64,000 bases of DNA, from contig NZ_JADEXU010000018.1 of NCBI RefSeq assembly GCF_015206895.1, positions 1 through 64,000 of the forward strand. Reading direction: 5' to 3'. The translations under genes were made by a program, and so were the position numbers. Source of the stretch: Nostoc sp. LEGE 12450. Lineage in GTDB: Bacteria; Cyanobacteriota; Cyanobacteriia; Cyanobacteriales; Nostocaceae. Position 1 is the first letter of the stretch, and each line of letters opens with the position of its first letter. Shown piece by piece: positions 9,367 to 21,043 of the stretch. The notes under the pieces are model-generated. The model was not told the origin of the DNA. It was given only the letters and a program-made list of their open reading frames with translations, and ran no database searches.

Positions 9367-11313
9367 CTACTTAATAAATATACCAAGGTCTGGAGAATCC
9401 CATGCTCGAAGATAAGTTTTACCTTTAAAATTAATCTCTTGATATTTAGTGTTTTTACTTTTTTTAGTTTCCATCGAAATAATCCCACAAGGTTCAAAAT
9501 CTTGATAAGAATCTTCTTTTTCTAAGACTGCCGAAATATTGGTTACATTAATATGTTGAATTTTAACCATTTCTTGATTCTTTTGCTGCCAAAGTACCCA
9601 AAAAGGATATTCCCAAGGGTCATTTCCCATTGATAGCCCAATAGTAGAGCATTTCTTTGAATTTAAAAACTCAACTGCTCCTATATAAGTATTTTTTAGG
9701 TAAGGTCTATTACTAAAATACTGCTCAATTCTCTGAGTTTGGAATATATTGTTGCTATAAACAATAGGTTTATACCTATTAGAAAATACCCAAGGTAATG
9801 ATGATATTAGTAAAAACGTTACTATAACAATTGCTATTTTTTGCTTTTTAAGCTTAGATAAAACAACACCTAAGAATGGGGACATTAGGATGAAAAAAGG
9901 CAAATGAAGACGACTATTCCAGGCTTGCCATTTTACAAAGTAGCAAAATAGAAAAAATGTAGCTGCGGTAGTAATTAGATAATCTAAAATATTACTTTCT
10001 TGTCGAATATATTTTCTAGTTATGAAAATTGTAATACCTGTTATTATTAATGCAAGATGTAGTAAATTCCCGGCGCTATTTTCATTACCAGATATCCCAA
10101 TTGTTGACAAACCTCCTGGGACAAAAAATGATTTTGAGAAAGTTATCCGAGGATCGTTAACATCGACACCGATAAATATATGGATAATTTGAATTAATCT
10201 ATTTGTTATTCCATTCCATAAACCAATCGGTGTACCTATATGCAAAGCAATATTCCTCAAAATATTAGAAACTAGTATATTAATACCGAGTACTTCATTA
10301 CGATAGCCTCCGGGTTCACCTAATGGCGAACCAAATAAATTGTAATTACGTAAATAGTGACTAATATTCAGTAATAAAGATATACTTCCTACTATTAAAG
10401 CTGGCTTCCATATTTTCCAGCGTAAACTTTTAATCTGGTAAAATCCAAACCAAATCAAGAAGGGAAATACATAAAAATAAGCAGTTCCTTTACTTAAAAT
10501 AGCTAGTCCTATGCTACTACCAATATTAAATGAGTTCGTCCAAATCTCTCTTCTTCCTGCTTGGATAGCCGATAATAAGTAGTAGGCAAGACAAACTACC
10601 CAAAATGCAAGCACATAATCATTTTGAGTACTTGAAGCTTGCAAAATTCCCATAGGAATTGTTGCAGTTATAACAGCAGAAAAAACCTGACCTCGTAAAT
10701 CTGCTTCAAGTTTTTTAGCAATTAATGAGACTGCAATAATACAGCCAATCATGCTAAACCATTGAACTAAGTTAACGAAATAGTCACCATCACTCAGAAT
10801 TTGAAAGTGCAAAATTACGAACTCTGACCAAGGATTTTGATATAGCTGTGGAGTATAATTTGTTGGATAATGAGCAACGCTATAATTTTGTATCCAATGA
10901 GCGACACGACTCATGTGATAATCCATAGAATCCCAGTTGTTTGGTGGTGCGATGATGGCAATTAATCCAACTATTGCTACAAGGAAACCTACACCACATA
11001 ATAGTAAATTTACAAAGGATGGGATTTGAATATTTTTATTTGCTTGGAAATAATTATTTTTCTCTAAAATCTTAGGCTTTTGGGAATTTAACCGAAAGCA
11101 TATATAAATTAAGATGATACATATTAATCCCCAAGTTGCTAATATCCAGCCAAAAGTAATTAATTTAAAAACACTCAAAGATTCTGTGATTACAGCGATC
11201 AAAATTCCCCAGTAAGTAGATGTTAATATCAGCGATTCACGCCAATCGGTACGATTTTTATTAATTAACCAAAAAATAGCAATCCAAGAAAGGAGAGGCA
11301 AAAATATAAACAT
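9367..11313 (-). CDS. polytopic membrane protein, GT39 (PMT/ArnT)-like glycosyltransferase
   Basis: A 648-residue protein with roughly twelve hydrophobic helices and a C-terminal soluble domain of about 130 residues. After the second or third helix comes the extracytoplasmic loop DSMDYHMSRVAHWIQ, which corresponds to the Asp-containing first loop of lipid-linked-sugar glycosyltransferases of the PMT/ArnT type. Such enzymes move a sugar from a polyprenyl phosphate donor onto protein or lipid outside the membrane. Donor and acceptor cannot be inferred. The gene is more AT-rich than its neighbours and stands alone between cofH and the metal locus, so recent acquisition is possible but not shown. 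Confidence 0.75.
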   Translation of the reverse strand: MFIFLPLLSWIAIFWLINKNRTDWRESLILTSTYWGILIAVITESLSVFKLITFGWILATWGLICIILIYICFRLNSQKPKILEKNNYFQANKNIQIPSFVNLLLCGVGFLVAIVGLIAIIAPPNNWDSMDYHMSRVAHWIQNYSVAHYPTNYTPQLYQNPWSEFVILHFQILSDGDYFVNLVQWFSMIGCIIAVSLIAKKLEADLRGQVFSAVITATIPMGILQASSTQNDYVLAFWVVCLAYYLLSAIQAGRREIWTNSFNIGSSIGLAILSKGTAYFYVFPFLIWFGFYQIKSLRWKIWKPALIVGSISLLLNISHYLRNYNLFGSPLGEPGGYRNEVLGINILVSNILRNIALHIGTPIGLWNGITNRLIQIIHIFIGVDVNDPRITFSKSFFVPGGLSTIGISGNENSAGNLLHLALIITGITIFITRKYIRQESNILDYLITTAATFFLFCYFVKWQAWNSRLHLPFFILMSPFLGVVLSKLKKQKIAIVIVTFLLISSLPWVFSNRYKPIVYSNNIFQTQRIEQYFSNRPYLKNTYIGAVEFLNSKKCSTIGLSMGNDPWEYPFWVLWQQKNQEMVKIQHINVTNISAVLEKEDSYQDFEPCGIISMETKKSKNTKYQEINFKGKTYLRAWDSPDLGIFIK

Positions 11314-11533
11314 AATAAAAACTAGACGAATATTAATATTCGTAATTAATCAATGCTTGACAAGTATATGCAATAGCTTAGGTTTTCTTAGCACACTGTC
11401 TTTTTATGGTTTGCATAACCCATTAACAAAAAAAATAGTGTGGTTTTACCACAACTATTTTAATTTATTAATACAAATCGTTGTCTTAGGGACTTGCAAA
11501 AAATAAATTATCCCAAATTATTTATAGATTTTT

Positions 11534-11557
11534 AGGGACGCAAGACTTTGCGCCCCT
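11534..11557 (-). terminator. GC-rich hairpin after the 392-aa membrane protein gene
   Basis: AGGGACGCAA (11534-11543) pairs with TTGCGCCCCT (11548-11557) with one mismatch and a 4-nt loop, 6 bp beyond the stop codon at 11563. On the minus strand the hairpin is followed by AAAAATC rather than a U-run, so it may act with other signals. Confidence 0.5.
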
Positions 11558-11562
11558 ACGGC

Positions 11563-12741
11563 TTAAGCATTGGTATTATTAATTTCTCGCGGTGTTCGTC
11601 GGTGCTGTATTAGCAATCCAATCGCCATACCAATGCCGACGAAGGCTGTAAAGTACAATAAACCAATTAATCGGATATATATTGGTGGTGCGATCGCTTC
11701 AACTTCCACTTCTTGCGCTACTTTTACTGGTGCAAATTGACGGTTAGATCCTGGTAAAGGAGTTGCTTCCACCTCGATTTTGTGGGGTGAACCATCAAAA
11801 AACTGTTCTTGCCATGTTAACTTACCTTGCTCGTCGGGAATACCTTTGTAGTCAAAGACTGTTAAGTTATGTTCTATAGCGATCGCTTTCACTTGCAACG
11901 CTACATCTGCGATCGGTTGTCCGGTTGCTGTATCTTTCACCTGTAACGCTAAATTTGCAAGTTTTCCGACAGTTGCGTTTTTATCTCCGTCAAGGCTAAT
12001 TTCCAATCCCTGAGATTTCTGAGATGATGGTGCGATTACTTCGGTACTACTTGGGTGGTGTTCGCTGCCATGAGCTTCTGCAACTTCTGCACTAATATTG
12101 ATAACTAATAGGGTTACTATAGCCACCACTGTCAATGCACTTAATAAAAGGCGTACTGACTGTGGTGCAATTTCTCCTTGTTGTAGTTCTCCTTGTCCAC
12201 CGATAACCCAACCACCTAACAATCCAAGTGATAGTAAAATAGCTGCGATAACCACAAAATATTTATATTTGATTGGATTTTCGTGGACATTTAGATTTAA
12301 GGTTTGCTGATATGGAGCAAAAGCATTTGCTACTAAAGGTGATACATTCACCAATAGTTGGTAGTTACCACGAATGGGTAACATCTGCTGAATTTCTAAC
12401 TTACCATCAGGTGCAGTAGCATTCATTTGCAGCAATTTTGTTCCCTCAACAATAGGAAAATCTGTTGTTAACCAAGGATTACGCGGTGGCGTTAAAATTT
12501 GTAAGCTAATTTTGGTATTTTCTAAATGTTTACCCGCAGCATCAACAGCTTGTAACGTCAGGGTAACAGGAGATTGTGGTTTTTCTGCCTCTGCTTCAAA
12601 GGGAAGAATACGTTCTAAAGGTGGGTTGGTAGAGAGTAGCACTCTGGATGTAGGAGTTTGGGAATTCCCTACAAAGGAATAAAGAATTGACAAGGTGATG
12701 CAAACAGCACTGATAACCCCAAAAAGTCGATATTTTTTCAT
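11563..12741 (-). CDS. membrane-anchored protein with Ig-like domains, metal-locus associated
   Basis: A 392-residue protein not matched to a named family. Topology from sequence: membrane helix or signal anchor at 5-25, a beta-rich extracytoplasmic domain at about 45-155, two helices at 160-182 and 198-218, a His-containing loop (EAHGSEHH) near 223, a second Ig/transthyretin-like domain at 250-345, and a final helix at 353-377 with a basic tail. The duplicated beta-domain layout resembles modules that present or stabilise metal-binding partners. It lies downstream of the CbtB-like gene on the same strand and divergent from the oxidase-FTR1 genes, so a periplasmic accessory role in metal uptake is inferred, not shown. 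Confidence 0.6.
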   Translation of the reverse strand: MKKYRLFGVISAVCITLSILYSFVGNSQTPTSRVLLSTNPPLERILPFEAEAEKPQSPVTLTLQAVDAAGKHLENTKISLQILTPPRNPWLTTDFPIVEGTKLLQMNATAPDGKLEIQQMLPIRGNYQLLVNVSPLVANAFAPYQQTLNLNVHENPIKYKYFVVIAAILLSLGLLGGWVIGGQGELQQGEIAPQSVRLLLSALTVVAIVTLLVINISAEVAEAHGSEHHPSSTEVIAPSSQKSQGLEISLDGDKNATVGKLANLALQVKDTATGQPIADVALQVKAIAIEHNLTVFDYKGIPDEQGKLTWQEQFFDGSPHKIEVEATPLPGSNRQFAPVKVAQEVEVEAIAPPIYIRLIGLLYFTAFVGIGMAIGLLIQHRRTPREINNTNA

Positions 12742-13035
12742 AAAAACTGACGGTAAATGTGAAACTTTTGTACTTTTTACAACTTAAATCTCAATAGCAG
12801 TAGATGAAACTTACCCCATATTTTTATTACCAAGTAAAAGAATTATTCATAAATTCAGACACCATCCAAAATACAGTTAAGGTAATGCGGAGATAAAAAA
12901 GCATCTCTACATTACCTAAAAATTATTCTAAGCAAAAATACTGGTACGAAACCTGCGATATTTTAGCGTTGTAACTTTGTTATGTTACCTAGCAAAGTTT
13001 TTCATTCATCTAAAAAATCTTAGGATTATGATAAT

Positions 13036-13227
13036 TTAGTGACATGCAACGCCTAATGTATGGTGACGCGCTGAGTGTGCTGTGTTATGAACCGCAGGAT
13101 AGGTGGAGAACAGAACAGTCCAGATAACTAAAGAAGATAGCACCATATAAAGTGTTACCTGCACAGGCTTGGATAAGGTAATACCTGCGGTTTTCTGCAA
13201 TACTGACATCTGAGAAAAAGTAGTCAT
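13036..13227 (-). CDS. CbtB-like small membrane protein (metal-binding C-terminus)
   Basis: A 63-residue protein with one membrane helix (residues 24-45) and the C-terminal signature HNTAHSARHHTLGVACH, which matches the His-rich tail (HNxxHDxRHxxGxPCH) of the CbtB family. CbtB was proposed, from its link to cobalamin riboswitches, to be the small subunit of a cobalt transporter with CbtA. No CbtA and no cobalamin riboswitch is seen here. The neighbours are iron/copper genes instead. The tail has four His and one Cys, enough for a metal site. Start is the only reasonable Met; the leader holds a hairpin (13262-13290). Confidence 0.75.
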   Translation of the reverse strand: MTTFSQMSVLQKTAGITLSKPVQVTLYMVLSSLVIWTVLFSTYPAVHNTAHSARHHTLGVACH

Positions 13228-13261
13228 TTTTGAGCTCCTATAATTAATTTGGGTAATTTAT

Positions 13262-13290
13262 CAATCAAAAGGCATGATGCCACTTGATTG
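13262..13290 (-). promoter_or_regulatory. hairpin in leader of CbtB-like gene
   Basis: CAATCAA (13262-13268) pairs with TTGATTG (13284-13290), and inside it GGCA with TGCC around a TGA loop. It lies 35-63 bp upstream of the start codon on the minus strand. It could be an operator or an RNA control element; no known riboswitch core is present. Confidence 0.4.
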
Positions 13291-13846
13291 GAAAAAGATA
13301 TACGATCAACTTTGGATCTGACAAGTGTGTATCAAATGTATTCTGTAATTCGACTTTAGTGAATACTATACTATCCTTTGAACATCGGCTCATCGGGATG
13401 TAGAAATCTCCACATAAAATCCATACAAATAACAAAAGAATGACACATGGATTTGAATGACGGCATTTTCAAAGCTGATAACACGAAGGTAACAGATTAA
13501 AATTAAAAATCAAAAATGCTCATGTTACCAAGCATCCAAAATTCCTTGAAATGTAATTTATGTTATCTCTAAGCCAATGAAATACACTACTGATCACCGA
13601 TATTTGCTTGCTTGTCTCTATATCCAAGATGCTATTATACTCATTGTTTGTACTATAGGTATTGCTGAAGCAATAAGCATATCAGGAATAGGCATAAAAC
13701 AGTTAGTTTTTGCTAAACATAATTTATACATAATTTAAGCGTAATAATACCGTTGAAATAAAGCAAGTTTGGCTAGAATTTTCAAAGACTGATTCTAGCT
13801 TGGTCTAGATTTAGCAACCCAAATAACAGTTTTTAAGCACTATCAA

Positions 13847-13861
13847 ATTATTGACAATAAT
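13847..13861. promoter_or_regulatory. 7-1-7 palindrome, possible Fur-type operator
   Basis: ATTATTG-A-CAATAAT is a perfect 15-bp palindrome with the 7-1-7 geometry and AT-rich composition of Fur boxes. It lies about 80 bp before the multicopper oxidase start, where a promoter is expected. The half-site is not identical to the TGATAAT consensus, so Fur binding is only a suggestion from geometry and gene content. Confidence 0.4.
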
Positions 13862-13887
13862 TATTAATTCCTCTAATATCTAAAAGC

Positions 13888-13915
13888 AATTGCAAATCTT
13901 TTGCAATTCTTTTTT
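13888..13915 (+). terminator. terminator-like hairpin in multicopper oxidase leader
   Basis: AATTGCAAA (13888-13896) pairs perfectly with TTTGCAATT (13900-13908) around a 3-nt loop and is followed by CTTTTTT. It sits 24 bp before the start codon of the downstream gene. It has the form of an attenuator or intrinsic terminator, though the stem is AT-rich. Confidence 0.4.
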
Positions 13916-13938
13916 GGTGCTAACCGTAACTAAATGTC

Positions 13939-14964
13939 ATGCCCAACAACTTCGCTCTAGGTAACGGAAAGCCTTGGAGCCGCCGTCAATTATTGAAGCT
14001 GGGACTAGCAGGTGCTGGAGTGACTGGTGCAGCTGGACTTTGGCAGATGCAAAATCTACAAAGTAAGTCAATAGTCAAAGTGCCACCATTCAATAGGTCA
14101 GCACCAGACGATGTTACTAACCCAATGACGATGTTAAGGGATTTTGATTATGGGACGGTAAAGCAAGAAAATGGGCGGACTATCCGGGAATTTCAGCTAA
14201 CTGCTGGTACTTCCATCATAAAGCTCAATAGTGCCGTCTCTTACAACATCTGGGACTTAAATGGTCGCATACCAGGGCCAACGCTACGGGCTAAACAGGG
14301 CGATCGCATCCGGGTACTATTTCTCAACAACGCGGGACATTCTCACTCTTTACATTTTCATGGCGTTCATCCAGCAGAAATGGATGGTGTTCGCCCAATC
14401 AGCAACGGCAAAGCCACGATTTATGAATTTGATGCTGAACCCTATGGTGTTCACTTATACCACTGCCATATTGAACCAGTCACCCGTCACATCGCCAAGG
14501 GACTGTACGGGATGTTTATCATCGATCCACCTACTCCCCGTCCCCCGGCTGATGAGATTGTACTAGTGATGGGTGGGTATGACGTAAATGATGATAGCCA
14601 TAATGATTATTACGCCTTCAATGGTCTGCCCCACTATTACATGCATAACCCGATTCAGATTTACAAAGATCAGTTGATTAGGCTGTATGTTCTCAACATC
14701 ATTGAATACGATCCAGCAGTGACTTTTCATCTCCATGCCAACTTCTTTGATGTCTATCGCTATGGCATGAGTATGACTCCTAGCGAGAAAACTGATGTGA
14801 TTACGATGGGTATAGCAGAAAGGCACATCTTGGAATTTGCTTTTCGCTACCCAGGTAAGTATATGTTCCATCCCCATCAGGATGCGATCGCAGAAAACGG
14901 TTGCATGGGTCAATTTGAAGTACTTACTGAGAGCAACTCTCAAAATACCGTTAAAAAGTCTTAA
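13939..14964 (+). CDS. two-domain multicopper oxidase, Tat-exported
   Basis: The 341-residue protein begins with a twin-arginine signal (RR at 15-16, then QLLKLG) and a hydrophobic stretch. Two cupredoxin domains follow. Domain 1 has SLHFHG and the type-1 copper box LYHCHIEP...H...GM, so Cys, His and Met ligands are present. Domain 2 has FHLHANF and MFHPHQD, which supply type-2/3 copper ligands but no type-1 Cys. One type-1 site, in the first domain, is the layout of a 'type C' two-domain oxidase. With FTR1 four genes on, a ferroxidase role like yeast Fet3-Ftr1 is the best inference; laccase or nitrite reductase-like activity is less likely here. Confidence 0.88.
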   Translation: MPNNFALGNGKPWSRRQLLKLGLAGAGVTGAAGLWQMQNLQSKSIVKVPPFNRSAPDDVTNPMTMLRDFDYGTVKQENGRTIREFQLTAGTSIIKLNSAVSYNIWDLNGRIPGPTLRAKQGDRIRVLFLNNAGHSHSLHFHGVHPAEMDGVRPISNGKATIYEFDAEPYGVHLYHCHIEPVTRHIAKGLYGMFIIDPPTPRPPADEIVLVMGGYDVNDDSHNDYYAFNGLPHYYMHNPIQIYKDQLIRLYVLNIIEYDPAVTFHLHANFFDVYRYGMSMTPSEKTDVITMGIAERHILEFAFRYPGKYMFHPHQDAIAENGCMGQFEVLTESNSQNTVKKS

Positions 14965-15114
14965 ATAAATAATTTGTCATTAATTTATTAAAATTTTAGT
15001 TCAACTAGTTGATAAAAACTGTCATTATATGTCAAAGTAAAGTTTACTACAACGTGTCAAACAAACTAGCTTCTACTAATAGTTTGAAATGTTTCAATTA
15101 ATACCTTTTTAGTT

Positions 15115-15123
15115 GTGTGAGGA
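15115..15123 (+). promoter_or_regulatory. ribosome binding site complementary to the Yfr1 motif
   Basis: GTGTGAGGA, with the GAGGA core 6 nt before the ATG at 15130, is an unusually strong ribosome site for this window. It is also the exact complement of TCCTCACAC, the conserved single-stranded motif of the cyanobacterial sRNA Yfr1, which represses targets by pairing at the ribosome site. Confidence 0.45.
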
Positions 15124-15129
15124 ACAAAA

Positions 15130-16167
15130 ATGATAAAAGTTCGTTATATCTGCTTAACTGTTGCAACTGCGGCAATAATTACCTTGAGTTCCTGTAGCAG
15201 TACACCAACCGCAGAAAATCCATCAGCACCAGTTGTTAGTACCCCAGCTACAGAGGCAGTAAGTAATAACAGTCATAGTGGTCATGGTGGCAAAGAAAAA
15301 ATTAACATTAACACTGCTATTTTGTCAGAATTAGATAAATTTGAAGCCAAACTAGGTGTTCCAGCATTATCTAACAAAATCCAGGCAGGTCGTCCTTATG
15401 GTAGCCCAGAAGATTTAGTTACTAAAAAAGTAATTACTCAAGAACAATTTGACCAAATTAAAGACCAGGTTGGTGTTCAAGAAGTGGTACTCACGGGTGA
15501 GGCAAAAGATGTTGACTACATGAGTAAGTTGGGTTTAATGAAAGGGCATCTTTTGGTAGCACGAGAACTGCTAGATCAGAATCAGCCAAAACAAGCAGAA
15601 CCTCATATTGGACATCCAGTTGAGGAAATTTATGTTGATGTAGAAGATCAACTTAATGAGCGCAAAGTCAAAGAATTTAAAACAACATTAGTAAGTTTAC
15701 AAGATTTAGTAAAATCTAGTCCGAAGGATAGCAAAGTTAAAACTAATTTTACTTCTTCAGTGCAAGCAGTTGACGGAGCGATCGCAGCTTTGCCAGAAGC
15801 TCAACGCTCAAAACCAGGATTTGTGCTACAGGTAATTAACGAACTGCTAGATTCAGCTAACTCCGAATATGGCGCTGCGATCGCCAATGGTAAAATAACC
15901 GCGCCAATTGAGTATCAAGACTCCCGTGGTTTTGTCGTTTACGCCAATGATTTATACAAAGGAATTTCTAGTCAAGTAGCTCAAGCAGATCCCGAAGCAC
16001 AAAAAGCGATCGATTCTAGTTTCGCTGAACTAATAAAAGTTTGGCCCAGCGCCATCCCACCAGCAAAAGCAGTCAAAACACCTACTGATGTCACCAAGCT
16101 GGTGAAAACCATTGAGGAAAACTCTCAAAAAGTAGTTGACAAATCCAATACCCAAGCACAGCGATAA
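15130..16167 (+). CDS. lipoprotein with helix-hairpin-helix and EfeO/imelysin-like region
   Basis: A 345-residue protein with a lipoprotein signal (LSSC, lipid Cys22), then a Ser/Thr/Pro and His-containing linker (SHSGHGG). Residues 55-115 resemble the ComEA-type helix-hairpin-helix (ININTA...L, then QFDQIKDQVG). Residues 130-335 are all-helical with GHPVEEIYVDVEDQL, reminiscent of the EfeO/imelysin (M75) periplasmic proteins. EfeO delivers iron to the EfeU/FTR1 permease. Position between the oxidase and FTR1 on one strand fits that role. The exact family is uncertain because the canonical HxxE imelysin motif is not clear. Translation starts from a strong GAGGA site. Confidence 0.7.
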   Translation: MIKVRYICLTVATAAIITLSSCSSTPTAENPSAPVVSTPATEAVSNNSHSGHGGKEKININTAILSELDKFEAKLGVPALSNKIQAGRPYGSPEDLVTKKVITQEQFDQIKDQVGVQEVVLTGEAKDVDYMSKLGLMKGHLLVARELLDQNQPKQAEPHIGHPVEEIYVDVEDQLNERKVKEFKTTLVSLQDLVKSSPKDSKVKTNFTSSVQAVDGAIAALPEAQRSKPGFVLQVINELLDSANSEYGAAIANGKITAPIEYQDSRGFVVYANDLYKGISSQVAQADPEAQKAIDSSFAELIKVWPSAIPPAKAVKTPTDVTKLVKTIEENSQKVVDKSNTQAQR

Positions 16168-16354
16168 CACTTTGTTTTAATGGAAAGCTGATGCGAAGGA
16201 GTTTAAAATAATGAAATCGTTAAGAGTTAGGGGTTATGAATTAAGAGTCCTGAGTTAAGAACCCCGATTTGCTAACTCCTGATTTCCAACTCCTTACTCC
16301 TAACTCCTAACTTCTACCTAATTACACTCCATTCGTTACTTGAACCAAGAACTG

Positions 16355-16789
16355 ATGCAAGAACTTGACTATAAAAAGACTATTGACTTGCTAAACGCCA
16401 TCATGGAATTTGAACTAGCAGGAGTAGTGCGTTATACACATTATTCTTTGATGGTGACTGGCCCTAACCGTATTCCAATTGTGGCTTTTTTCAAAGCACA
16501 GGCAAGCGAGTCTTTACTTCATGCTGAACAAGTAGGAGAAATTCTTACCGGTTTAGATGGGCATCCCTCTCTGAAAATTGCCCCAATGGAAGAAACTTAC
16601 CAGCATAAAGTCAAGGATATCTTGGAAGAAAGCTTATCCCATGAAAAAAAGGCATTGGATCTGTATAAAAATCTGCTCGAAACTGTCACCAATGCTAGTA
16701 TTTATCTTGAAGAATTCGCTCGCGGCATGATTGGGCAAGAAGAGATGCATAATCTCGAACTGAAAAAGATGCTACGCGATTTTAGCTAA
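16355..16789 (+). CDS. bacterioferritin-like diiron protein
   Basis: A four-helix ferritin-like protein of about 144 residues. It shows EFELAGVVRYTHY in helix A, ESLLHAEQVGE in helix B and EEMHNLELKK near the C-terminus, giving the Glu and His ligands of a diiron centre. It is close to cyanobacterial bacterioferritin or Dps-like proteins, but shorter than Bfr from E. coli (158 aa) and with no obvious heme Met. It sits between the EfeO-like lipoprotein and FTR1 genes, so storage or oxidation of imported iron is likely. I take the ATG at 16355; a TTG at 16340 would add five residues. Confidence 0.8.
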   Translation: MQELDYKKTIDLLNAIMEFELAGVVRYTHYSLMVTGPNRIPIVAFFKAQASESLLHAEQVGEILTGLDGHPSLKIAPMEETYQHKVKDILEESLSHEKKALDLYKNLLETVTNASIYLEEFARGMIGQEEMHNLELKKMLRDFS

Positions 16790-16831
16790 TAGTCATTAGT
16801 CATTGGTCATTAGTCATTGGTCATTAGTCAT
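16790..16831. repeat. heptanucleotide tandem repeat (STRR type)
   Basis: Six units of TAGTCAT or TGGTCAT follow the bacterioferritin-like stop codon directly. Similar units recur at 45112-45165. A palindromic GC-rich repeat (CGCCAGCGGC...AGGGTAGGC) fills 16861-16912, and AAAGACA units (16926-16950) precede the FTR1 start. These are the short tandem repeats typical of Nostoc genomes. Confidence 0.85.
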
Positions 16832-16953
16832 TAGTTAAAAACAAATTCAAATGACATAGACGCGCCAGCGGCTACTCTTCGAGAACGCCAAGGGCGAACC
16901 CGCAGGGTAGGCCAACTGACTAATGACAAAAGACAAAAGACAAAGGAAAAAAG

Positions 16954-17922
16954 ATGGATTTTAGTACTGCTCTACCTACTTTTGTAATAACGCTCCGAGA
17001 AGGAGTAGAAGCGGCCCTTGTTGTTGGTATCGTGCTAGCTTTGCTGAAAAAAGCTAAACAATCCCGACTAAACTCTTGGGTATATGCTGGTATCGCCGTT
17101 GGCATTGTTGTCAGTGCTTTTATAGGTGTGCTATTCAGTTGGCTAATTCAAATACTGGGAGCAGCGAATCCTCAATACACCTCGGTAGTTGAGCCAGCCT
17201 TGGAAGGTGTATTTAGCGTATTAGCGATCGCAATGCTCAGTTGGATGCTAATCTGGATGACTAAACAAGCCAGATTCATGAAAGCTACGGTTGAAGGAGC
17301 AGTAACAGAAGCACTGACACAAAACTCAAATGCTGGCTGGGGTGTTTTTACTTTAATTTTAATTGCCGTTGTCCGCGAAGGCTTTGAAACTGTTCTGTTC
17401 GTTGCTGCTAATTTTCAACAGGGATTTATGCCAGCATTGGGTGCTATTGCTGGTTTGGTAGCAGCAACAGCCATTGGAGTGCTGCTATTTAAATGGGGTG
17501 TCAAAATTAACATCCGCCAGTTTTTCCAGGTAATGGGCGTTTTCTTAGTGTTGATTGTCGCTGGGTTGTTAGTTTCAGCCTTGAAACACTTTGACGAAGC
17601 TGTGGCTAACCTTGCCCTTAGCAGTCGTGCCACAGAAAGCTTTTGTTTCTATTACGAACGTTTTACAAAAGTCCACTCCTGTATTTTGGGGCCAATGGTT
17701 TCAAATACTTCCACAATCTTGCCTGACGAACAGTTTCCTGGGATTATTCTCAAATCTTTATTTGGTTATAGAGACAATCTCTACCTTGTACAAGCAGTTG
17801 GATATGTGACCTTTTTACTCACCATTGGAGGACTGTATTTCCGCAGCCTTGGAGGTGCTTCTCCTGAAGGTAAAAAAAATATCCCCTTTGGTCAAAAACC
17901 AATTAGTTCTGCAAAAGATTAA
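16954..17922 (+). CDS. FTR1-family iron permease (EfeU-like)
   Basis: The 322-residue protein has about seven membrane helices and both FTR1 iron-binding motifs: REGVE at 15-19 and REGFE at 141-145. FTR1/EfeU permeases import iron after oxidation by a partner ferroxidase; the partner here is probably the multicopper oxidase two kilobases upstream. A loop of about 60 residues (208-268, containing two Cys) before the last helix is longer than in E. coli EfeU. Start ATG 16954 follows repeat DNA (AAAGACA units), which may place a separate promoter upstream. Downstream is a foldback element. Confidence 0.93.
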   Translation: MDFSTALPTFVITLREGVEAALVVGIVLALLKKAKQSRLNSWVYAGIAVGIVVSAFIGVLFSWLIQILGAANPQYTSVVEPALEGVFSVLAIAMLSWMLIWMTKQARFMKATVEGAVTEALTQNSNAGWGVFTLILIAVVREGFETVLFVAANFQQGFMPALGAIAGLVAATAIGVLLFKWGVKINIRQFFQVMGVFLVLIVAGLLVSALKHFDEAVANLALSSRATESFCFYYERFTKVHSCILGPMVSNTSTILPDEQFPGIILKSLFGYRDNLYLVQAVGYVTFLLTIGGLYFRSLGGASPEGKKNIPFGQKPISSAKD

Positions 17923-17936
17923 AAGTACAAACAACT

Positions 17937-18110
17937 AGAACCCCGATTTATTAAACGCGATGTGCAACTTATCCTTAGAACCCCTCTCCAAATCTCTCCC
18001 CCACAGGGAGAGAGGCTTTGATTCTTGCTCCCCTTCCCTTGTAGGGAAGGGGTTGGGGGTTAGGTCTGAGAGAAAGTTGCACACGGTGTTATTAAATAAG
18101 TCGGGGTTCT
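17937..18110. repeat. 174-bp foldback element
   Basis: Ends AGAACCCCGA (17937-17946) and TCGGGGTTCT (18101-18110) are perfect inverted repeats, with further pairing of TGTGCAACTT and AAGTTGCACA just inside. The core holds the CCCTCTCC...GGGAGAGG and CCCCTTCCC...GGGAAGGGG palindromes common in cyanobacterial intergenic DNA. It separates the convergent FTR1 and binding-protein genes. No coding capacity. Confidence 0.8.
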
Positions 18111-18160
18111 GAAGCCTTACAATTTTCATAAATTAAGATTACTAATTATATTTAATTCAA

Positions 18161-19096
18161 CTAAGTGCCCTGGGGTGCGAACAACACTTGCTTAAGCTGC
18201 TGACAAGCCTTTTCAATTGCATCTATACTACCCGGATTGACCAAACCAAAATAATCAAACACATAAACTCGGTTATTTTTAGTTGCTTGTAGTTGCTGCC
18301 AAAAAGCTTCCTTTTTCAGTGAATCTAAAAGTGCTGCTTCTGAATTCCCTTGTAGGGGATTAACCAAAATTATCACCTCTGGATTTGCTTCTAAAACTTT
18401 CTCAGCAGAAAGCGTCACATAACCACCAATTGGACTTTTTCCTTGTAAATCTGCTGCTATATTTTTCGCCTGAAATTTTGCCAACAAATCCCCTGCCCAA
18501 CTATTTTTATTCGGCGCTAAGATTGGTTGACGACTAACCAGCGCTAAAGTAGAAAAACCTTGAGTTGGCTTTTCTGGCAAGAAAGTTTTATAACGATTTA
18601 ACAAAGGCAGAGGATCGGCATCAATTTTTTTAGCAAGGGTTTTAGTAAGTTCTTCTAGAGATTCCCAGTTATTCACCTTAGTGAGAAAGGTGTTAATTCC
18701 TAGCTGCTGAAGTTTTTGAATTGGGATGTTAGAAAAACCTTCTGCGCCAATAACTAAATCTGGCTTTAGTGCTACAACTTTTTCTAAGTTTGGTGGGTTT
18801 TGTCCTTCACTAACACGGGGAATATCTTTGAATCTTGAGTCATTCTTAAATAATTTGCTACCAGTGATTCCGACAATTTTTGTGGAATTAAGTCGAGAGA
18901 TGATATCAGCAGAAAGAGAAGAAAGAGCAACAACTCTTTTTACCGATCCTGTTGGTAGTTGTTGAGAATTTGCGTTTATCGTCTCAGTAGGGTTTATGAC
19001 TTTTATTTGTGACTGCTGAGTGGTTGCAGTCGTGCAAGCAGCTAAAACTATACTCATCAAAAGTGCTAAAGCAGATAAGAGCCAACGACGATGCAT
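18161..19096 (-). CDS. iron-siderophore/cobalamin-type ABC substrate-binding lipoprotein
   Basis: A 311-residue lipoprotein (lipobox ending LAAC, Cys21) of the FecB/BtuF periplasmic binding family: VKRVVALSSLSADIISRLN near the start, KPDLVIGAEGFSN in the middle, and a long linking helix followed by NNRVYVFDYFGLVNPGS near the end. Such proteins deliver ferric siderophores, heme or B12 to a membrane ABC transporter. No permease or ATPase gene is adjacent, so it either uses one elsewhere or works with the FTR1 system. It converges with FTR1. The ligand cannot be chosen from sequence; iron is favoured by context. Confidence 0.85.
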   Translation of the reverse strand: MHRRWLLSALALLMSIVLAACTTATTQQSQIKVINPTETINANSQQLPTGSVKRVVALSSLSADIISRLNSTKIVGITGSKLFKNDSRFKDIPRVSEGQNPPNLEKVVALKPDLVIGAEGFSNIPIQKLQQLGINTFLTKVNNWESLEELTKTLAKKIDADPLPLLNRYKTFLPEKPTQGFSTLALVSRQPILAPNKNSWAGDLLAKFQAKNIAADLQGKSPIGGYVTLSAEKVLEANPEVIILVNPLQGNSEAALLDSLKKEAFWQQLQATKNNRVYVFDYFGLVNPGSIDAIEKACQQLKQVLFAPQGT

Positions 19097-19543
19097 ATTA
19101 AAATTCCTTCTGGGGTAATAATTGTGTAAGAAGCATACTCAGCAACACATTCAAAAATCGTCAATGTAGCTTTTAGCAATATAGCTATAAAGTACCAAAC
19201 TGGATCGACGAAGCCAGAGATTGAAAAGATGTGGCTAATGGCAACAACTAAAAGTCAAGCTATTCTTGCTTCAAAAAAACTACTAATTTTGGCAGATTTT
19301 GACTAACTAAGGTAGAGGCGGAATCTACCTAATAGTAGACTAGGCTTGCTTTGTATTCAGATGTTTTATACTTCCCTATATGCGTTTATGTCTTTATAAA
19401 AAAATGCGGCAACACAAATAGGGGTTTGGCAGTCTTGGAAAACAGGTTTTAAACCCTTGCTGCTTACTTATATAATTCGATACACGTTACCTACAATTAT
19501 CTGAATTGGGGTCGATGATTATTGTGTCCATCTACTGGTAGAT
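19097..19543. other. divergent intergenic region
   Basis: Control region between the binding-protein gene and the hydrolase gene. Small hairpins are present: GGTAGA/TCTACC (19311-19330) and a TA-rich one near 19443-19454. No RNA gene, operator or coding sequence is recognised. Confidence 0.5.
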
Positions 19544-21043
19544 ATGTCTAACCATCCTTTAAGCGTTGCAAGATCAACATTATTTTGGCGGCGTATACTC
19601 GCCGTTGTTTTCACTACGAGTTCGTTGCTCCCCAACTTTGGAACCGAACCAGCAAGGGCGCAAGTAACCCAATATTGTCAGTTATCATCGTCGGCGGCGA
19701 AAGAAAAAGAAAACTTACGTTTATCAGCTCTTAAAGGCAATCAAGATGCCCAAACCCGCTACCAAAACTTAATAAAAAAACAGGCACAGGAATTACAGGA
19801 GTGCCGCACTCGGACTTGGCCACAAATCCAAGCTGTCTGGTTACGCTTGTATCCTTGTGACATTCAGCCAGGAATAGTTGACCAGATTATGGATCGGATT
19901 GTCAACCGTGGCTATAACCAAGTGTATGTGGAAGTATTTTATGACGGGCAGGCATTATTGCCAGCAAAAGCTAACCCGACAGCTTGGCCTTCTGTAATTC
20001 GCACTCCAGGGACAGAAAACGCTGACTTACTCGCCACAGCAATTCAAAAAGGTCGGCAACGTGGTTTGAAGGTCTACGCCTGGATGTTTACTAACAATTT
20101 CGGCTATACTTACGCCCAGCGACGAGATAGAGAAAGTGCGATCGCTCGAAATGGTAAAGGTCAAACCAGCCTATATGTCGTAGATAACGGCTCTCAACTA
20201 TTTATCGACCCCTACAACTCGCAAGCAAAAAGCGACTACTACCAATTAGTAAAAGAAGTTTTGCGTCGTCGTCCAGATGGCTTGCTATTAGATTATGTGC
20301 GCTATCCGCGCCAAGCAGGAAGTGATTCCATCGCTACCAAAGTTTCAGATTTATGGCTATTTAGTCCCGCAATCCAAGAAGCTTTATTTAAACGGGCACT
20401 GAATTACAAAGGGCTGGACTTAATTCGACGCTATTTGAGCAAGGGATATGTCACCGCCGGAGATATCGCGGAAATCGATAAACTTTATCCCCAGGAAGGG
20501 GAACCGCTTTGGCAAGGACGCATTCCCCCACCAGCGCAAAAATCAATTCTGTCTGCAACCGACAGACAACCGCTTTTGCAATGGGAATTATGGCAGCTAG
20601 CAGTTGCTCACGCCATGCAAGGAATTCTAGATTTTGTCAACATAGCCAGTTATCCAGCAAAGCAGCAAGGTGTTTCCACGGGAGTAGTGTTTTTCCCTGA
20701 TGGCAACCAAACTGTAGGACAAGGGTATGATTCTCGCTTACAACCTTGGGATCGTTTTCCCGCTACATTAGAGTGGCATCCCATGTCTTATGGGAATTGC
20801 GGTAATGTCACTTGTATTGTGGCGCAAGTGAAACGGGTTTTGAGTATGACAAAACCAGGTACAAAAGTGATTCCAGCTTTAGCTGGCAAATGGGGAGAAT
20901 CGGTCAGTAATCGTCCATCCCTTGAAGTGCAAATGCAGGCACTCCGCCAATTTGCGCCCCAACTGAAGGGAGTTAGCCATTTTGCCTATTCTTGGCAATA
21001 TCCTGAGAATGATAATGATCGCAAATTCTGTCGCATTCGGTAA
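19544..21043 (+). CDS. exported glycosyl hydrolase-like protein (GHL10 family)
   Basis: The 499-residue protein has an N-terminal hydrophobic export segment (residues 15-38). A TIM-barrel domain of the glycosyl-hydrolase-like 10 type (PF02638 group) follows: AVWLRLYP near 102, GYNQVYVEVFYDG near 125, GLKVYAWMFTNNFGYTYA near 178, and DGLLLDYVRYPRQ near 246. The Asp in LDYVRYP is the usual active-site candidate. Substrate is unknown; family members are often cell-wall or polysaccharide linked. It is a single gene with a GGGGC/GCCCC hairpin after it. The start is supported only by the signal peptide. Confidence 0.8.
   Translation: MSNHPLSVARSTLFWRRILAVVFTTSSLLPNFGTEPARAQVTQYCQLSSSAAKEKENLRLSALKGNQDAQTRYQNLIKKQAQELQECRTRTWPQIQAVWLRLYPCDIQPGIVDQIMDRIVNRGYNQVYVEVFYDGQALLPAKANPTAWPSVIRTPGTENADLLATAIQKGRQRGLKVYAWMFTNNFGYTYAQRRDRESAIARNGKGQTSLYVVDNGSQLFIDPYNSQAKSDYYQLVKEVLRRRPDGLLLDYVRYPRQAGSDSIATKVSDLWLFSPAIQEALFKRALNYKGLDLIRRYLSKGYVTAGDIAEIDKLYPQEGEPLWQGRIPPPAQKSILSATDRQPLLQWELWQLAVAHAMQGILDFVNIASYPAKQQGVSTGVVFFPDGNQTVGQGYDSRLQPWDRFPATLEWHPMSYGNCGNVTCIVAQVKRVLSMTKPGTKVIPALAGKWGESVSNRPSLEVQMQALRQFAPQLKGVSHFAYSWQYPENDNDRKFCRIR

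Follow-up and report, generated by a model that had tools for sequence, protein, structure and literature searches.

A constant CbtB–Ig protein pair beside the oxidase–FTR1 iron locus of Nostoc sp. LEGE 12450 as a probable cobalt module

The stretch of DNA analysed here (the window) comprises 64,000 nucleotides of Nostoc sp. LEGE 12450 (contig NZ_JADEXU010000018.1, positions 1 to 64,000, assembly GCF_015206895.1) and belongs to a genome of 8.8 Mb in 415 contigs. It carries, on the plus strand and in this order, genes for a two-domain multicopper oxidase, a helix-hairpin-helix (HhH) lipoprotein, a ferritin-like protein and an FTR1-type iron permease, and, divergently on the minus strand, genes for a CbtB-type protein and then for a membrane protein with two immunoglobulin-like (Ig) domains, the Ig protein. 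The locus probably consists of two modules placed back to back, namely an oxidase-coupled importer of ferric iron and a CbtB–Ig module for the uptake or capture of cobalt, which would be a counterpart of CbtAB. Cobalt, rather than iron or copper, is the most likely cargo of the pair, as judged by the cobalamin (B12) riboswitches of its relatives. CbtB and the Ig protein are constantly paired, CbtA is absent, riboswitches precede the pair in relatives and not here, and the pair shares or exchanges its place beside the iron operon with the CbiMNQO transporter. The two genes of the pair are as follows.

11563..12741, minus strand: Ig protein, 392 amino acids; no Pfam or NCBIfam family above cut-off; described by an AlphaFold model and conserved residues
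13036..13227, minus strand: CbtB, 63 amino acids; PF09489 at 35 bits (cut-off 27)

The CbtB of the window scores below the cut-off of TIGR02459 (26.5 bits against 64.4). It has one membrane helix, as read from the sequence, and a C-terminal motif H-x3-H-x2-RH-x6-CH, and residues H47, H51, R54, H55, C62 and H63 are invariant in 24 aligned sequences including that of the window. Among 194 cyanobacterial genomes, the window genome included, the Ig protein was detected by protein search in 15, near full length in 14, and CbtB lies directly 5' of the Ig gene in every one of those genomes. Viewed from the other gene, CbtB (PF09489) was found in 12 of the 194 genomes with the Ig gene adjoining in all 12; genomes G060 and G167 also have CbtB beside the Ig gene by tblastn, both missed by the PF09489 model at E 0.001. 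CbtB is 5' in 24/24 loci with a near-full-length Ig gene, plasmids included, a count that omits loci L033, L034 and L046 with Ig fragments only. The start of CbtB is missing in L036, where transposase genes adjoin, and the Ig frame is cut short in L043.

Scanning the contigs of public genomes turned up 133 matches, of which the best 80, all cyanobacterial by title, were analysed; several of them repeat loci fetched earlier (five identical Ig rows). CbtB lies 5' of the Ig gene in 78 of these 80 loci, and in the remaining two (L051 and L116) the contig starts less than 300 bases from the Ig gene. In L078, about 1.9 kb separates the two genes. CbtB and the Ig protein are a constant pair, and the recurrence of the pair and of its position on the side of the oxidase in many species is more than chance.

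CbtA (PF09490) was found in none of the 194 genomes, the window genome included, and the Haloferax positive control was recovered; the absence of CbtA noted in the initial annotation therefore holds throughout this sample. Like CbtAB (PF09490/PF09489), the window pair has a CbtB domain with a His/Cys tail, and many of its relatives are preceded by a B12 riboswitch, as reported for cbtBA elsewhere (PMC8123684). Unlike CbtAB, the pair lacks CbtA and has as its constant partner an unrelated protein with four helices and two Ig domains, and the window clade of the pair lacks the riboswitch. CbtAB-type cobalt uptake is itself known as a prediction (PMC2667541, PMC4771312).

The AlphaFold model of the Ig protein (mean predicted local distance difference test score 84.8) has helices at residues 3-23, 156-181, 194-226 and 354-382, and its strands cluster at about 33-152 and 240-348, forming two beta-rich Ig-like domains. 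Four membrane helices are also predicted, so that the four helices and two Ig-like domains described in the initial annotation are borne out. Residues D94, E99, E154, E290 and D316 are invariant, and H320 is 98% conserved, in 66 aligned Ig sequences including that of the window. The window protein has a His-rich linker, AEAHGSEHHPS. Linkers from the riboswitch loci have on average 2.9 Met and 1.5 His (19 parsed linkers of 27 loci), and those of 58 other loci 0.7 Met and 2.8 His. Several relatives have Met-rich linkers such as MSMPMSHM, which we take to be a copper-type motif.

Candidate relationships of the Ig protein to known families were not upheld. The match to TIGR03943, a 'permease subunit', is far under the cut-off (E 0.004), and no CbtA match was obtained at E values up to 1. 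When the Ig profile was searched against PDB sequences, the hits were GhpA, a grappling hook protein (45 residues, 6e-7), and transthyretin (about 1), neither of which is informative. Hits of the PDB fold search were generic Ig and macroglobulin domains with Z no higher than 8.0, for the most part covering the second Ig domain and barely the first.

B12-box sequences surfaced unexpectedly in motif discovery on the CbtB leaders. With the Rfam models, 8 of 20 short loci (L012, L013, L014, L015, L095, L103, L112 and L123) were found to have a cobalamin-type riboswitch at gathering score immediately 5' of CbtB. Seven of these are RF00174 at 33.5-64.5 bits (cut-off 31.5), the match in L112 being cut at its 5' end, and L123 has RF01482 (53.9 bits, cut-off 50); L105 gave a ninth match, which is not before CbtB. 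A custom riboswitch model trained on 17 leaders was run on the window and 107 loci, and gave clear matches directly before CbtB in 27 of the 107, 17 of them training sequences. Decayed riboswitches were seen at 35-42 bits in L101, L120 and L126, and marginal matches at 16-18 bits in L091, L099 and L108. Neither Rfam nor the custom model found a cobalamin riboswitch in the 64-kb window, and the earlier statement that a B12 riboswitch is missing is correct for the window. Elsewhere in the window genome there are two cobalamin riboswitches, both before apparent B12-synthesis genes, one preceding genes for a DUF1636 protein and a precorrin-reductase-like protein and the other preceding precorrin genes (names read from translations). 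A riboswitch of such kind in Anabaena PCC 7120 answers to cobalt supply (PMC10878165).

The distribution of the riboswitch was viewed on a tree of 99 Ig proteins, built by a quick method and rooted at the midpoint, with L086 (frame break) and five duplicate rows omitted. The nearest named rows to the window Ig protein are those of Desmonostoc muscorum FACHB-395 and Nostoc sp. UCD121. The window clade comprises 47 rows, of which 35 adjoin the oxidase or FTR1. No riboswitch row belongs to this clade: L031 and L044 are its neighbours, L032 is basal and the rest are in the other main group. Because riboswitch rows flank the clade on more than one side, loss of the riboswitch in the window clade is the simpler reading, given a root placed by midpoint only. 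An effect of the FTR1 neighbourhood was ruled out as the cause, as clade members on the side of an NRAMP gene (e.g. L035, L070 and L074) also lack it. The place of the riboswitch in relatives is taken, in most of the window clade, by a promoter-like sequence together with an imperfect dyad, and the stretch around the second promoter box (TATATC) recurs in most of the clade. These elements are placed in the window as follows.

13262..13290, minus strand: imperfect inverted repeat CAATCAAGTGGCATCATGCCTTTTGATTG, part of the CbtB leader, where relatives have the riboswitch
13294..13324, minus strand: promoter-like TTGTCA, 16-base spacer, TATATC (consensus match only)

No conserved RNA structure was detected in the leader (0 pairs by RNAalifold with 26 leaders). 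With the custom model also blank in the clade, the leader was rejected as a decayed riboswitch or a new RNA element, and a promoter or operator is more likely.

A second link to cobalt comes from CbiMNQO. A CbiM search in the 194 genomes revealed two types in most Nostocaceae. The first is a PDGLE fusion (checked in L023), often near the FTR1 locus, and the second belongs to a CbiM-CbiN-CbiQ-CbiO set, with its CbiM above the NCBIfam cut-off for cobalt CbiM (checked in L169 and L172). Away from FTR1, a cobalamin riboswitch precedes CbiMNQO in seven of seven loci (L172, L173, L174 and L179-L182). In L168, L169 and L170, CbiMNQO has the oxidase operon on one side and the PDGLE-type operon on the other, exactly the slot that holds the pair in L021, L023, L083 and L087. 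No riboswitch was found by the model before the slot-located CbiMNQO of L168, L169 and L170. The oxidase and HhH genes of L170 are remnants, and L171 is a fourth, reduced case of the slot, from which oxidase, HhH and FTR1 genes are gone. CbiMNQO resembles the pair in its cobalamin riboswitch outside the slot and in taking or sharing the same place beside the oxidase and FTR1 in some relatives, but its proteins are unrelated and the pair has no ATPase of its own.

Both systems occur together in two loci. In L071 (= L193; L071:9666-14409), next to the oxidase operon, a single strand carries CbtB, Ig, CbiM, CbiN, CbiQ and CbiO genes in line, with the CbiM match beginning about 120 bases after the end of the Ig match. 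L194 has, beside the oxidase, the order CbiM-N-Q-O, CbtB, Ig, PDGLE-type operon (L194:7064-11706), with no riboswitch match in this in-line arrangement. L071 and L194 are possible intermediates between the arrangements. With CbiMNQO in line, the pair is tied directly to a cobalt importer and the two are not mutually exclusive; these cases strengthen the link to cobalt and weaken simple replacement.

The CbiMNQO-type CbiM is present in 28/60 Ig-positive and 82/95 Ig-negative Nostocaceae genomes (155 genomes, p 1.9e-7), five genomes with Ig fragments only being scored as Ig-negative. The association persisted in a permutation within genera (p 7.5e-4), on removal of six low-quality genomes (28/60 against 80/89, p 1.4e-8) and on removal of G091, G255 and G322, each with one stop within the matched Ig stretch (26/57 against 82/95, p 2.4e-7). 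The window genome has no CbiMNQO, and CbiM is left as a fragment with a stop in G125.

The proximity of these transporters also bears on the metal. The pair lies within about 3 kb of the CbiM-PDGLE operon, an operon of the Co/Ni energy-coupling factor (ECF) type, in L021 (= L075), L023, L077, L083, L087 and L194. This, together with the in-line CbiMNQO of L071 and L194 and the ease with which nickel and cobalt importers are confused, would suit a pair that imports nickel, or nickel and cobalt, or that helps ECF Co/Ni transporters. Such a role is distinctly improbable, as the riboswitches of relatives indicate cobalt, CbiMNQO as the exchange partner has a cobalt-type CbiN, and ECF genes are absent from the fetched flanks of many loci. 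NikK and NikL, which have an extracytoplasmic Ig-like part, offer a parallel. They are helper proteins linked to Ni/Co ECF operons (PMC2667541), but ECF genes are not near the pair in many loci, and the comparison is by description only.

Neighbours of the pair in the 80 loci were counted as genes within the fetched flanks, several contigs being short. The oxidase is present in 35 loci and FTR1 in 31, and hence the association of CbtB with FTR1 extends beyond one strain. Neither is present in 45. Other neighbours include NRAMP (12 loci), P-type ATPases (14), CzcA (6), CDF (5) and DUF1636 (12) genes, and also ECF genes, and pairs without FTR1 were found near NRAMP, ZIP, ECF Co/Ni and heavy-metal efflux genes. 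The mixed neighbourhoods, together with the plasmid copies described below, indicate a mobile pair that is not dedicated to iron uptake.

The oxidase–FTR1 operon also occurs without the pair, in L175-L177. In L033 and L034 it stands beside a decayed remnant of the Ig gene only, and in L028 and L094 such a remnant is accompanied by a more recent copy of the pair. Close to the pair in L039, L041, L043, L044, L045 and L106 (five plasmids and one genome contig) is a different two-domain multicopper oxidase gene with a ZIP-type transporter gene after it, possibly another oxidase-coupled metal importer.

A distantly related second version of the pair, in which DUF1636 follows the Ig gene, forms a clade of 12 tree rows, six of them at the oxidase–FTR1 place, and it follows that such pairs reached this site more than once. 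Two of these six loci have remnants of the first Ig gene. The intact first version is present in 0/6 genomes with the DUF1636 version at the slot and in 3/5 with that version elsewhere, L117 being dropped since its contig ends there and intact copies being taken from two search lists only; replacement of the first pair in situ is suggestive at most (p 0.06). DUF1636 looks like a member of a B12/cobalt regulon. Such a role fits its own riboswitch, as a cobalamin riboswitch immediately precedes it both in L172 and in the window genome (L190:3868-4335). L091 has a cobalamin riboswitch of 119.5 bits (L091:10338-10469) about 7.5 kb behind the pair and 5' of a DUF1636 gene, and the leader of its pair has only a marginal match. 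A literature search for DUF1636 returned unrelated cobalt papers only.

The oxidase and FTR1 counts, the DUF1636 version at the same place, the six loci with the other oxidase and a ZIP transporter, and the Met-rich linkers of several relatives would all fit a pair that serves the oxidase–FTR1 importer, capturing periplasmic copper or iron and loading the oxidase or FTR1. This is unlikely, given that the riboswitches of relatives sense B12 and not copper or iron, that more than half of the loci have neither oxidase nor FTR1 in the fetched flanks (some contigs being short), and that the operon occurs elsewhere without the pair or with a remnant only. The initial annotation had proposed that CbtB is a metal chaperone or sensor for iron or copper. 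That proposal is not supported, in view of the B12 riboswitches of relatives, the contexts free of FTR1, the in-line CbiMNQO of two genomes and the anti-correlation with CbiMNQO. Regulation by B12 alone had been named there as a sign against the proposal, and B12 control is indeed seen in relatives, though not in the window clade.

Plasmids carry the pair in 15 records, with the Ig gene at 80% or more of its length in 14, and eight are typed as conjugative. Each of the 12 plasmid regions examined has at least one metal-transport gene, and CzcA, CDF, P-type ATPases, ArsR/SmtB and RppAB are among the genes nearby. These records could reflect a role in metal tolerance, with the pair as a periplasmic sensor or buffer that travels with plasmid efflux genes, and so could the 45 loci without oxidase or FTR1, of which 19 have efflux-type genes nearby and 13 have NRAMP, ZIP or ECF importers. 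A tolerance role is nonetheless improbable, because a B12 riboswitch increases expression under B12 shortage, a behaviour that suits uptake and not efflux. Moreover, importers (FTR1, NRAMP, ZIP or ECF) are near in 46 of all 80 loci and efflux-type genes in 20, though the 46 are mostly FTR1.

Several observations weigh against a cobalt role for the pair. CbtA is described as predicted and unconfirmed (PMC4771312), so that cobalt transport by CbtA/CbtB is itself a prediction. The helices of the Ig protein have no conserved His, Cys or Met, E219 being the only conserved residue there. The custom model finds no riboswitch in the 47 rows of the window clade, and for this reason B12 control is not direct evidence for the window copy. 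Iron-, manganese- and zinc-type transporters and efflux pumps also adjoin the pair. Strict replacement of CbiMNQO by the pair was rejected, as 28 of the 60 Ig genomes hold both, side by side in two. Finally, Ig genomes more often have HupE (46/60, against 31/95 of those without Ig), which has been reported to be a cobalt permease in Synechocystis (PMC4284471, PMC7689651). Among HupE-positive genomes, CbiM is missing from 29/46 with Ig and 3/31 without (p 2e-6), but among HupE-negative genomes there is no anti-correlation of Ig and CbiM (3/14 and 10/64 without CbiM, p 0.69). Loss of CbiMNQO may need both the pair and HupE, or lineage history may add to it.

The iron module and the lipoprotein gene on its far side are made up of the following features.

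13889..13907, plus strand: Fur-family-like inverted repeat ATTGCAAATCTTTTGCAAT, found by motif search, 31 bases 5' of the oxidase ATG
13939..14964, plus strand: two-domain multicopper oxidase with a Tat-type (twin-arginine) leader; Cu-oxidase_3 and Cu-oxidase_2
15130..16167, plus strand: HhH lipoprotein with a C-terminal helical domain; PF12836
16355..16789, plus strand: ferritin-like protein, 144 amino acids; PF00210 at 70.5 bits; alternative TTG start at 16340
16954..17922, plus strand: FTR1/EfeU iron permease; PF03239 at 186 bits; two REGxE motifs
18161..19096, minus strand: substrate-binding lipoprotein, BtuF/IsdE-like; Peripla_BP_2, PF01497 at 91.9 bits

Family searches confirmed all genes named in the initial annotation, i.e. 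the type C oxidase, HhH lipoprotein, ferritin-like protein, FTR1 and CbtB. Domain 1 of the oxidase contains HSHSLHFHGVH and YHCHIEP, and domain 2 contains FHPHQD and no HCH. The type 1 copper motif, being in domain 1 only, fits a two-domain oxidase of type C under the type A/B/C scheme, which we take as the basis for this assignment. The closest solved structure is 3gdc (E 1.5e-85), and the protein is a probable ferroxidase, given the neighbouring FTR1. The permease is above the cut-off of PF03239 and below those of TIGR00145 (230 bits, cut-off 303.8) and the EfeU models. For the ferritin-like gene, the listed open reading frame begins at the TTG, and the ATG at 16355 gives the length of the relatives.

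The helical domain of the HhH lipoprotein has invariant GH, PHIGHPxEE and EYQDSRGF, and the protein is present, whole or in part, in 42 of the 194 genomes. Its earlier description as 'EfeO-like' found weak support, as Foldseek ranked EfeO second (E 0.39, probability 0.69) and EfeM fifth (E 0.69, probability 0.72), both non-significant, and no M75 match was obtained at E values up to 1. The locus thus resembles EfeUOB and Fet3-Ftr1 in its FTR1/EfeU permease with REGxE motifs and adjoining multicopper oxidase, but differs from EfeUOB in having the HhH lipoprotein and the ferritin-like protein and no EfeO (M75) or EfeB family match. No EfeB DyP-type peroxidase was found in a scan limited to the nine proteins at 9367-21043.

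The inverted repeat in the oxidase promoter, ATTGCAAATNATTTGCAAT, has the 7-1-7 shape of Fur-family repressor sites and is strongly conserved in relatives. Its motif reached a log-likelihood of 339 against 29-34 in five shuffles (29 dereplicated upstream regions, uncorrected for kinship). A Fur/Zur box of the TGATAATNATTATCA type before the oxidase gave way to ATTGCAAATNATTTGCAAT, which is better conserved. Within the 8.8-Mb genome, only the oxidase promoter itself has an exact match. A regulon defined by this operator was rejected, since the two sites with one mismatch are not before metal genes by the open reading frames seen. The operator differs from the published Anabaena FurA consensus (PMC4005646).

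The interval covered by the initial annotation also spans the minus-strand lipoprotein gene 3' of FTR1, which was left unnamed there. Its product resembles IsdE (haem) and BtuF (B12) models below their cut-offs and is next to FTR1 in 24 of the 80 loci. A role in cobalt or cobalamin supply is possible, because CbtJ, which serves a Co(II) transporter in Sinorhizobium, is BtuF-like (PMC7689651).

The iron module would work by production of Fe(III) by the oxidase, its transfer, probably through the HhH lipoprotein, to FTR1, which would carry it across the membrane, and uptake of the iron by the ferritin-like protein inside. For the pair, the His/Cys tail of CbtB and the His- or Met-rich linker of the Ig protein may bind metal outside the membrane, with the Ig domains and the linker predicted on the same side from the order of the helices. 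A CbtB–Ig complex might then capture cobalt outside and pass it inward or to a permease, without an ATPase of its own. The cobalamin riboswitch of many relatives would lower expression of the pair when B12 is plentiful, and the window clade of Nostocaceae would have lost the riboswitch and retained an ordinary promoter.

A distinct cyanobacterial uptake system had been suggested for the whole locus. The arrangement is indeed distinct, but it is better read as an iron importer and a probable cobalt module than as a single whole. A broader proposal can be put forward tentatively, namely that CbtB and the Ig protein constitute a cobalt importer specific to cyanobacteria in which CbtA has been replaced. 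It may have spread on conjugative plasmids, and may share or swap the oxidase–FTR1 site with the ATP-driven CbiMNQO, having moved there from B12-riboswitch control to another signal. In a review of cobalt import in cyanobacteria, the passages on the subject describe HupE and CbiMNQO and mention no Cbt protein (PMC4284471). No description of the CbtB–Ig pair was found among the literature titles and abstract openings listed, subscription papers lying mostly outside this coverage. Against the literature found, three features are new: the constant Ig partner in place of CbtA, the riboswitch-free clade, and a site next to an iron operon that the pair shares or exchanges with CbiMNQO.

These findings give the 133 matching stretches in public genomes a testable role, by way of a constant and often riboswitch-linked partner of CbtB. 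They also present the pair as a system in which riboswitch control exists in some clades and is missing in another. Iron and cobalt are metals easily mistaken for one another, and the site shared with CbiMNQO beside an iron operon opens the study of how the two are kept separate. If the proposed reading is true, the uptake of iron and of cobalt would be encoded side by side.

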